Of a DNA stretch of 64,000 nt, positions 50,709-54,581 are shown piece after piece. Source of the stretch: Halorientalis sp. LT38 (GTDB lineage: Archaea; Halobacteriota; Halobacteria; Halobacteriales; Haloarculaceae). The translations under genes were made by a program, and so were the position numbers. The first letter of the stretch is position 1. Every line of letters begins with the position of its first letter. The stretch covers positions 1,860,001 through 1,924,000 of the forward strand of contig NZ_JAYEZN010000001.1 in assembly GCF_037031225.1 (NCBI RefSeq), given 5' to 3'. Under the pieces are notes generated by a model. It saw only the letters and a list, made by a program, of their open reading frames with translations, was not told the origin of the DNA and searched no databases.

Positions 50709-50916
50709 GCGAGGCCCAGTGGACGACCGCGACTCCGTGAGGGGAGCCGGACGGCTTCGGATCCGACGGACGCGTTTTTTCCGACCTGTCGCGCCGAAAA
50801 TTTCAAGGAGCAGGACGTTTAGATACGAACGAACATGGGGGAGGGGATCGAACAGCGCGAGCGGTGCCGCCCGTGTGCCGCTCGGAGACGACACGGGACC
50901 GCGATCGGTCGACCGG

Positions 50917-52461
50917 ATGGGGGGGCCGGCGATGGGTGAGCGCGACGGCGCCGACCGACGAGTCGCCAGCGGCCTCGCCGTCCTTGCAGCCGTCGCGGTG
51001 CTGGGCGCGGGCCTGGCAGTCGGCGGCGTGCTCCTCTCGGGACCGGGTGCCGCCGGGGCGGCCGCGCTGTCGGGCGACGCGGTCGACGACGATTCCGATC
51101 CAGTGGCGCCCGGCTGTCCGTCCGCCGACGCGCTCCGCCAGGAGGTCTACGACGAACTCGAGAACCGCTCCGTCGAGGACGTGCGGGCCGAGATCCCCGA
51201 GGAGGCCGTCGTGTGTCTCCCCGACGACGTGCGGGACGTGCTCGACTTCGAGTCGAACGAGAGTTCGGGCGACGGGGAAACCGAGACGGCGACCGACGAG
51301 ACGACGACCGAAGACGGCGACGACTGTCCGCCGGCCGACGAGATCCGCTCGGAGGTCGAGGAGGCCCTGGCCTTTGCCCCGGCGTCGGCTGTCAGGGCGG
51401 AGATCCCCGACGAGTACGAGAACTGCCTCCCGGACGACGTGCGCGCGGATCTGAACATGGACGGGGCCTCGACGGACACGCCGACCGCGACGCCCACGGC
51501 CACGGACACCGCGACGGCGAGCGACGCGGCGGCGGAGACGGAGACGGCCGGCGGGATCGACTGCCCGCCGGCCGACCGGATCCGGGAGGAAGTCGACAGG
51601 GCGCTCGAACGCATGCCCGCCGCGCAGTTCCGGTCGATGGTGACCGAAGAACAGATCGAGTGCTTCCCGCCGGACGTCCGCGAGCGACTCGGGTTCGCGC
51701 AGGACGGGTCGACGAGCGAGTCCGAGAGCGAGTCGGCCGGCGCGGCGGGCGCTGACCGCGAGTCCAGATCTGGAGCCGACGCGGACTCGGACGCACAGGC
51801 CGCCGAACAGGGGGCCGACGAGCGCGACTCGGACGGCGACGGCGTCGTCGACTCGCGGGACTACGCGCCGCACAACGCGAGCGTCCAGTACGAGGACTCG
51901 GACGGCGACGGGGTGCCGGACAGGTACGACTACGCGCCCCGCGACCCGGACGTCCAGGAGAAAGGCGACGTGCAGGACGCCGCGGCGGGCGGTGACGACG
52001 ACGACGGCCTCCCGGTCGCCGCCGGCTCGGCGCTGCTGCTCGTGCTCGCCGCCGGGGTCGGCGCGACCGTCTACCGACGCTACGGCGGCGGGTCGGGCGG
52101 CCCCGGCGGGGAGAACCTTCCCGCACCGGCGTCGGGGTCCCCGCCGGTATCCGGAACCGGGCAGGTGCCGGGCGCAGCCGCGGCGGGTGGCGACCCCCGG
52201 GGACCGGACTACGACGTGTTCGGCGAGAGCGCGTTCGACGCCCGCGAGGAGTTCACCTTCGACGCCCACGACGCCGACGACGGCTTCGTCTTCGACAACG
52301 AGCCCGCGACGGACGAGGACGTGATCACCCTCGAGAGCGACGACTCGCTCGGCGACGAGGCGGCCGACGCCGGCTTCGTCTTCGACGGCGGCGCGGGCAC
52401 GGAACTGGAGGACGCCGGCGACTCGACCGGCGACTCGGCCGGCGAACCGGCCGACGACTGA
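50917..52461 (+). CDS. Surface protein with three cysteine repeats, TSP3-like repeats and a C-terminal membrane anchor
   Basis: A 514-residue protein. Residues about 15-50 form an N-terminal hydrophobic signal/anchor. Three repeats of about 44 residues follow at 67-110, 137-180 and 216-260. Each begins with Cys-Pro-(Ser/Pro)-Ala-Asp and has a second Cys exactly 33 residues later (67/100, 137/170, 216/249) in Cys-Leu/Phe-Pro-x-Asp-Val-Arg. They are joined by Thr/Asp-rich linkers. Two calcium-type DSDGDGVxD repeats lie at about 304-345. A transmembrane helix (about 365-387) precedes an acidic tail with a repeated FVFD motif. ATG 50917 is chosen (50932 also possible). No known family covers the cysteine repeat to my knowledge. 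Confidence 0.78.
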   Translation: MGGPAMGERDGADRRVASGLAVLAAVAVLGAGLAVGGVLLSGPGAAGAAALSGDAVDDDSDPVAPGCPSADALRQEVYDELENRSVEDVRAEIPEEAVVCLPDDVRDVLDFESNESSGDGETETATDETTTEDGDDCPPADEIRSEVEEALAFAPASAVRAEIPDEYENCLPDDVRADLNMDGASTDTPTATPTATDTATASDAAAETETAGGIDCPPADRIREEVDRALERMPAAQFRSMVTEEQIECFPPDVRERLGFAQDGSTSESESESAGAAGADRESRSGADADSDAQAAEQGADERDSDGDGVVDSRDYAPHNASVQYEDSDGDGVPDRYDYAPRDPDVQEKGDVQDAAAGGDDDDGLPVAAGSALLLVLAAGVGATVYRRYGGGSGGPGGENLPAPASGSPPVSGTGQVPGAAAAGGDPRGPDYDVFGESAFDAREEFTFDAHDADDGFVFDNEPATDEDVITLESDDSLGDEAADAGFVFDGGAGTELEDAGDSTGDSAGEPADD

Positions 52462-52586: not shown

Positions 52587-53159
52587 TCAGTCGCCCTCGA
52601 CGAGGAACAGCGCACCGAGTGCCACGGCCTGTCCGGTGAGCACGAGTTCGAGCGTCGGGCGGGGCGGCAGGGCGCCGAGCGTGACCAATGCCAGCAGCAG
52701 GACGGCCGCCACCGCGAGACCGCCGTGGTAGAGCCGCGACTTGGCCCACCCGTCGCCGCCCGACGCGAGATCGCCCGCGGCGAGCGAGAGGTACGGCTCC
52801 AGTTCCCACCCGCGACGGGTCAGCGAGACCGTCTTCACCTGTTCGTCGTACTCGAGGACGCCGACGGAGTCCATCTTCGGGAGGTGGGACTGATAGAGGC
52901 CGACGTAGACCCGTTTCCGCTCGTTCGACGTGATGTCCGAGACGGTCGTGTCCGCCTCCAGGGCGGCCACGTGTTCGGCTAACTCACCGAGAGTGACGTC
53001 GTCCCCTTCGTCACCGACGTCGTACAGGTACGCGAGGACGCGTCGTCGCCGACCGTTGCGGAGGACCTCGAAGGCGTCGTCGGCCGAAAGTCCCTCCGAG
53101 ACAACGTCCGGCCCGCCCCGACCACCGCCAGCCTGCCTTTCGGCCAACAGTCCTGTCAT
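52587..53159 (-). CDS. DUF7344-type winged-helix protein with two membrane helices
   Basis: A 190-residue protein. Residues about 20-120 form the winged-helix domain (SADDAFEVLRNGRRRRVLAYL, LGELAEHVAALE, then RKRVYVGLYQSHLPKMDSVGVLEYD), the HLPKM motif being the family mark. Two hydrophobic helices end the protein (about 148-165 and 172-186). A membrane-tethered transcription regulator is likely. CTTAAG at 53193-53198 may be its TATA box. It is divergent from the SPFH gene. Confidence 0.85.
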   Translation of the reverse strand: MTGLLAERQAGGGRGGPDVVSEGLSADDAFEVLRNGRRRRVLAYLYDVGDEGDDVTLGELAEHVAALEADTTVSDITSNERKRVYVGLYQSHLPKMDSVGVLEYDEQVKTVSLTRRGWELEPYLSLAAGDLASGGDGWAKSRLYHGGLAVAAVLLLALVTLGALPPRPTLELVLTGQAVALGALFLVEGD

Positions 53160-53414: not shown

Positions 53415-53438
53415 GGAGTGACCAGCCGAAATCGACCC

Positions 53439-54581
53439 ATGGCCGGCCAAGACCGGAAGAGCCTCGCCTACGAGCTCGGCCGCGCGAGCGCCCGCTCCGG
53501 GTCGGCGGGGTCGCCGCGGGGGCTCGCTGCGATGCTGTCGGGCTTTGCGCTCGTGCTCTTTTTCCTCGGCGTCGTCTCCGGCCTGGAACTGGTCGGCATC
53601 CTGTTCCTGGCCATCGTGATCGTCGCGGTCGACAGCGCGGTCGTCGTGGTCCAGGCCACGGAGAAACGCGTGCTGACGGTGCTGGGCAGCTACCGGAAGA
53701 CGCTCGAACCGGGGCTCAACGTCGTGCCGCCGTTCGTCTCGCGGACCCACGCCTTCGACATGCGCACGCAGACGCTGGACGTGCCCCAGCAGGAGGCGAT
53801 CACGCGGGACAACTCCCCGGTCACCGCCGACGCCGTCATCTACGTGAAGGTCATGGACGCGAAGAAGGCCTACCTCGAAGTCGAGGACTACACCAACGCC
53901 GTCTCCAACCTCGCCCAGACGACGTTGCGGGCCGTCCTGGGCGACATGGAACTGGACGAGACGCTCAGCAAGCGCGGCCAGATCAACGCCGCCATCCGCC
54001 GGGAACTGGACGCCCCGACCGACGAGTGGGGCGTCCGCGTCGAGTCCGTCGAGGTCCGGGAGGTCAAACCCTCCATCGACGTGCAGGACGCGATGGAACA
54101 GCAGACCGCCGCCGAGCGCCGCCGGCGCGCCATGATCCTCGAAGCCCAGGGGGAACGCCGCTCGGCCATCGAGCGCGCGCAGGGGGACAAACAGTCGAAC
54201 GTCATCCGCGCGCAGGGCGAGAAACAGAGCCAGATCCTCGAAGCGCAGGGCGACGCGGTCTCCACAGTATTGCGAGCGCGGTCCGCGGAGTCGATGGGCG
54301 AACGCGCCGTCATCGACCGCGGGCTGGAGACCCTCGAGAACATCGGCCGGGGCGAGTCCACGACCTTCGTCCTGCCGCAGGAACTCTCCTCGCTGGTCGG
54401 CCGCTACGGGAAACACCTCACCGGCAGCGACGTCCGGGCGGACGGCCAGTCGCTGCAGAGCCTCGACTTCGACGACGAGACGCGCGAACTCCTCGGTCTG
54501 GACGACGTCGAGTCGACGCTCGAAACCCTCGATACGGACGTCGAGCGACCCCCCGAAGTGGCCGCTAACGGAGAGGACTGA
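53439..54581 (+). CDS. SPFH/Band 7 stomatin-like protein
   Basis: A 380-residue membrane-organising protein. The N-terminal region has two hydrophobic segments (about 28-48 and 52-68). The Band 7 domain (about 70-220) includes VVQATEKRVLTVLGSYRKTL, GLNVVPPFVSRTHAFDMRTQ, TLDVPQQEAITRDN and VKVMDAKKAYLEVEDY. A long Ala/Glu/Arg helix follows (MEQQTAAERRRRAMILEAQG and onward, repeated QG[DE]KQS motifs), then PQELSSLVGRYGKHL. Such proteins form oligomers at membranes and often pair with NfeD proteases; no nfeD is adjacent here. Confidence 0.94.
   Translation: MAGQDRKSLAYELGRASARSGSAGSPRGLAAMLSGFALVLFFLGVVSGLELVGILFLAIVIVAVDSAVVVVQATEKRVLTVLGSYRKTLEPGLNVVPPFVSRTHAFDMRTQTLDVPQQEAITRDNSPVTADAVIYVKVMDAKKAYLEVEDYTNAVSNLAQTTLRAVLGDMELDETLSKRGQINAAIRRELDAPTDEWGVRVESVEVREVKPSIDVQDAMEQQTAAERRRRAMILEAQGERRSAIERAQGDKQSNVIRAQGEKQSQILEAQGDAVSTVLRARSAESMGERAVIDRGLETLENIGRGESTTFVLPQELSSLVGRYGKHLTGSDVRADGQSLQSLDFDDETRELLGLDDVESTLETLDTDVERPPEVAANGED

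Follow-up and report, generated by a model that had tools for sequence, protein, structure and literature searches.

In the 64,000-nt window (the whole stretch of Halorientalis sp. LT38 DNA analyzed here), a gene for a predicted membrane-anchored surface protein was found between uvrC and an SPFH gene, the location it has in Halorientalis (Table 1). The ortholog N-termini favored the second of two in-frame ATG codons, which suggested that translation starts there; residues are numbered below in the 514-aa form. The codon-position GC of the gene was 0.78/0.53/0.91, and when changes among the orthologs were counted, synonymous ones outnumbered nonsynonymous ones in the repeat units. This indicated a real coding gene.

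Table 1. Features of the surface-protein gene, its surroundings and the same-locus gene of a relative
Feature	Position	Strand	Remarks and basis
Candidate TATA-like promoter element	50816..50830	+	GTTTAGATAC in window, GATATAA in relatives; judged by eye
Conserved leader hairpin	50858..50884	+	CGAGCGG...CCGCTCG; 11 pairs
Whole gene	50932..52461	+	509 aa from ortholog-supported ATG; 514 aa from ATG at 50917
N-terminal hydrophobic segment	50959..51030	+	Signal peptide or anchor; hydropathy
Cys-pair unit 1	51115..51249	+	Sequence, AlphaFold2, ortholog alignment
Cys-pair unit 2	51325..51459	+	Matches ortholog unit 3; may be a fusion of 2 and 3
Cys-pair unit 3	51562..51696	+	Ortholog unit 4
Two thrombospondin-3-like repeats	51826..51957	+	DSDGDGV..DYAP; membrane-proximal
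Transmembrane segment	52009..52074	+	Followed by RRY; hydropathy, orthologs
Acidic tail	52210..52458	+	DVFGESAFD / EFTFD / GFVFDN / DEDVITL / GFVFDGG / GEPADD
DUF7344 gene	52587-53159	-	PF24035, E 5e-28; separates surface gene from SPFH gene in window
SPFH (Band_7) gene	53418-54581	+	Near uvrC
Same-locus protein in G001	L025:2695-4464

The only cysteines of the protein were 67/100, 137/170, and 216/249, and all three pairs were spaced exactly 33 residues apart, an outcome expected about five times per million when six cysteines are placed at random. The first-pass annotation had described these three Cys-paired repeats with a length of ~44 residues; the pairs were recovered as described, and the conserved unit was corrected to about 45 residues. 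Identity between any two of the three units was 19–23 of 46 residues, a level not seen in any of 20,000 shuffles. The units start with CPSAD, CPPAD, and CPPAD and end with CLPDDVR, CLPDDVR, and CFPPDVR, respectively. The two calcium-type repeats, the transmembrane helix, and the FVFD-type tail that had also been claimed were all present, the membrane topology being a prediction. The repeats (DSDGDGV at residues 304 and 327) carry the calcium-ligand pattern DxDxDGxxD as DSDGDGVVD and DSDGDGVPD. The Pfam search gave no match to thrombospondin type 3 (PF02412) in the window protein, and in an ortholog this family stayed below threshold (13.8 bits vs. the gathering score of 25). The second hydrophobic segment spans residues 363–386, and the tail motifs FTFD, FVFD, and FVFD lie at 446, 457, and 487.

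Hydropathy and composition revealed an N-terminal export segment, an acidic outer part and a C-terminal membrane segment, the features by which haloarchaeal anchored surface proteins are recognized. Both hydrophobic segments had basic residues on the expected cytoplasmic side, and all six cysteines were located between them. In six orthologs, 3–11 N-glycosylation sequons were found in the outer part and 0–2 in the tail. An archaeal lipoprotein was rejected; the first cysteine (67) is well beyond the hydrophobic segment and in the context VAPGC, which is no lipobox. An anchored surface protein with repeats is a familiar kind of object in haloarchaea. The thrombospondin-3-like module recurs in unrelated haloarchaeal proteins, and several of those with a membrane-proximal DSDGDGVPDSxDYAPxDPxVQ carry it just before a C-terminal membrane segment. 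However, none was seen with a Cys-pair unit or an FVFD tail, and where there is such a segment, the protein stops only a few residues later. Haloarchaeal proteins are generally cysteine-poor, and a strictly conserved surface bead with one cysteine pair per unit is therefore unusual.

Searches of Pfam, NCBIfam, PHROGs, PADLOC, and PDB sequences, including profile searches, matched no family to the unit, in line with the initial impression that it belonged to no known one. The unit is thus, by its sequence, a domain undescribed in the libraries searched. The short helical units of DEK_C (PF08766) and UBM (PF14377), families described as intracellular, have a helix pattern vaguely like that of the unit, and each matched one of 19 members (E 0.02 and 0.14, respectively). 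DEK_C was rejected, since the best of seven units tested scored 14.2 bits against a gathering score of 24.8. Defense-system and phage readings were also rejected; no relative was present in plasmid and phage records, and nothing was found on such a protein in the openly accessible literature.

AlphaFold2, run with 19 unit sequences, predicted a compact four-helix bead (helices 4–17, 20–26, 29–32, and 37–42) with a mean pLDDT of 91.9, in agreement with the helical unit proposed at the outset. The three units recurred as separate confident beads in the full-length model, in which most of the remaining residues scored <50 and the linkers and the tail were predicted to be disordered. Foldseek against PDB and BFVD found nothing convincing for the unit, a 46-residue query for which such a search is weak and a new fold unproven.

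Orthologs were detected in G002, G003, G005, G007, and H. pallida (L027), with 54–59% overall identity and four units each. Together with the window protein and a single-unit relative in G001, seven proteins provided 24 units. Both cysteines, whose conservation had been put forward as a test of the repeat, were retained in all 24, as were P2, R8, L15, R24, P36, D38, and L43 around them (C1 and C34 in unit numbering). Each unit is probably closed by one disulfide. With a single cysteine pair in each unit, bonds to another unit or another molecule are also conceivable, so that the cysteines might hold an inter-unit metal or polymerize the protein; we consider this very improbable, since the 24 units contained no conserved histidine or extra cysteine and the unit was predicted as a self-contained bead.

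In the unit tree, the sequences grouped by position and not by species, with mixed node supports, as expected for 45-residue sequences. That suggested the units were already distinct before the species split. Unit 3 of the window protein paired with ortholog unit 4. Unit 2 grouped with ortholog unit 3, although its first half resembled ortholog unit 2. This pattern fits the loss of one unit from the window protein by recombination. The pN/pS values from six sequences, obtained by a simple counting method, were 0.37, 0.59, and 0.34 for the units (the value of unit 2 is affected by uncertain orthology). The calcium repeats gave 0.27 and the tail 0.44, compared with 0.75 in the juxtamembrane stretch and 0.51–1.17 in the linkers, the last linker being the highest. 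The units and the tail thus appear constrained and the last linker unconstrained. These data also bear on whether the beads bind anything. They could be passive spacers forming an S-layer-penetrating stalk, with the function residing in the tail or in partners: the linkers are of low complexity, the number of units varies (three, four or one), and the tail is conserved about as well as the units. However, drift or homogenization would be expected of units that served purely as spacers, whereas the units here are conserved by position across species and retain charged residues (R8, R24, and D38) besides hydrophobic ones. We therefore regard passive spacers as unlikely, although they are the strongest competitor of a binding role.

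The unit profile matched only Halorientalis among 146 genomes of the family Haloarculaceae, 392 of the order, and 295 of the phylum (overlapping samples). Weak matches outside the genus in the 392 genomes (E 6e-4 to 1e-2) were treated as chance; four of the best were two ABC1-kinase-like proteins and two short frames without a Cys pair. Within the genus, neither the protein nor the repeat profile found a match in G004 or G006. In the family sample, the tail profile was likewise restricted to the genus. Three weak matches elsewhere were discarded: one fell within a 2-oxoacid oxidoreductase-like protein, and the other two were in apparently non-coding frames.

The best available clue to function came from the congener G001. 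Its protein at the same locus opens with a signal segment and a CBM35 (PF18099, E 4.5e-11). A long Thr/Glu (TETETE) linker then leads to a single Cys unit, in which both cysteines are kept, and to one calcium repeat; the chain ends right after a membrane segment. The Pfam search found no CBM35 in the window protein, and the domain occurred in one relative only; it links the locus and the Cys unit to the CBM35 surface proteins, and its place beside the unit favors a surface-binding role. The first-pass annotation had suggested surface adhesion or sensing linked to the inside by the tail. The adhesion-like setting gained support from this CBM35, but the tail did not hold as an obligatory part: the multi-unit orthologs keep it with high conservation, but the G001 variant lacks it. 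This indicated that the tail is optional across the genus and not obligatory for a role at the surface.

In G002, G003, and G005, the surface gene directly preceded the SPFH gene, with both on one strand; the gaps in these genomes and in G001 were too short for the DUF7344 gene. In G004, uvrC and SPFH were adjacent with nothing between them, and they were also adjacent with gaps of 50–163 bp in genomes of other families (G049, G053, and G054), an adjacency that recurred in several families of the order. The simplest reading is that an older uvrC-SPFH pair received the surface gene by insertion; secondary loss in G004 is possible. In other genera, other genes were seen between uvrC and SPFH, for example, in G030 (L054), a cluster encoding secreted proteins that resemble one another. 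The upstream position on the same strand, together with tail motifs invariant in six orthologs, might point to a receptor-like sensor, in which the outer units sense the state of the envelope or a redox state, which the FVFD tail would relay to an inside partner, perhaps SPFH. We consider such a sensor rather improbable, given the uvrC-SPFH pairs without a surface gene, the tail-less variant in G001, and the DUF7344 gene between the two in the window.

Taken as a whole, the computed architecture, conservation, predicted fold, locus, and genus restriction are best explained by a Halorientalis membrane-anchored, multivalent surface protein for adhesion or recognition, to which we assign a probability of roughly 0.55. 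The N-terminal hydrophobic segment would direct export. Outside the cell, flexible acidic Thr/Ser-rich linkers would string together three or four helical beads that fold independently and are each probably held closed by a single disulfide, and the calcium-dependent thrombospondin-3-like repeats would raise them off the membrane. The transmembrane segment would lead into an acidic, probably disordered cytoplasmic tail, whose F-x-F-D motifs may recruit a partner inside. The most likely job of such a protein would be multivalent binding to an extracellular glycan, a protein or a neighboring surface. A bolder version takes the unit as a disulfide-stapled mini-domain that is new and arose independently, serving haloarchaeal surface proteins as an exchangeable binding module; in most species the F-x-F-D tail would couple it to the interior, making an archaeal adhesion receptor with a partner inside. 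We think this doubtful. We judged the membrane-anchored adhesin or recognition protein, with its new genus-restricted mini-domain, to be real and undescribed, and of modest weight for now. The unit defines a small domain family amenable to production and testing, and a partner of the conserved tail could reveal a haloarchaeal link from the surface to the interior.

Upstream of the gene, the candidate TATA-like element sits within a conserved leader block. The leader hairpin had 96% of its cells paired and two two-sided changes in an alignment of only five ortholog sequences, and it could act as a regulatory element of the 5′ UTR.
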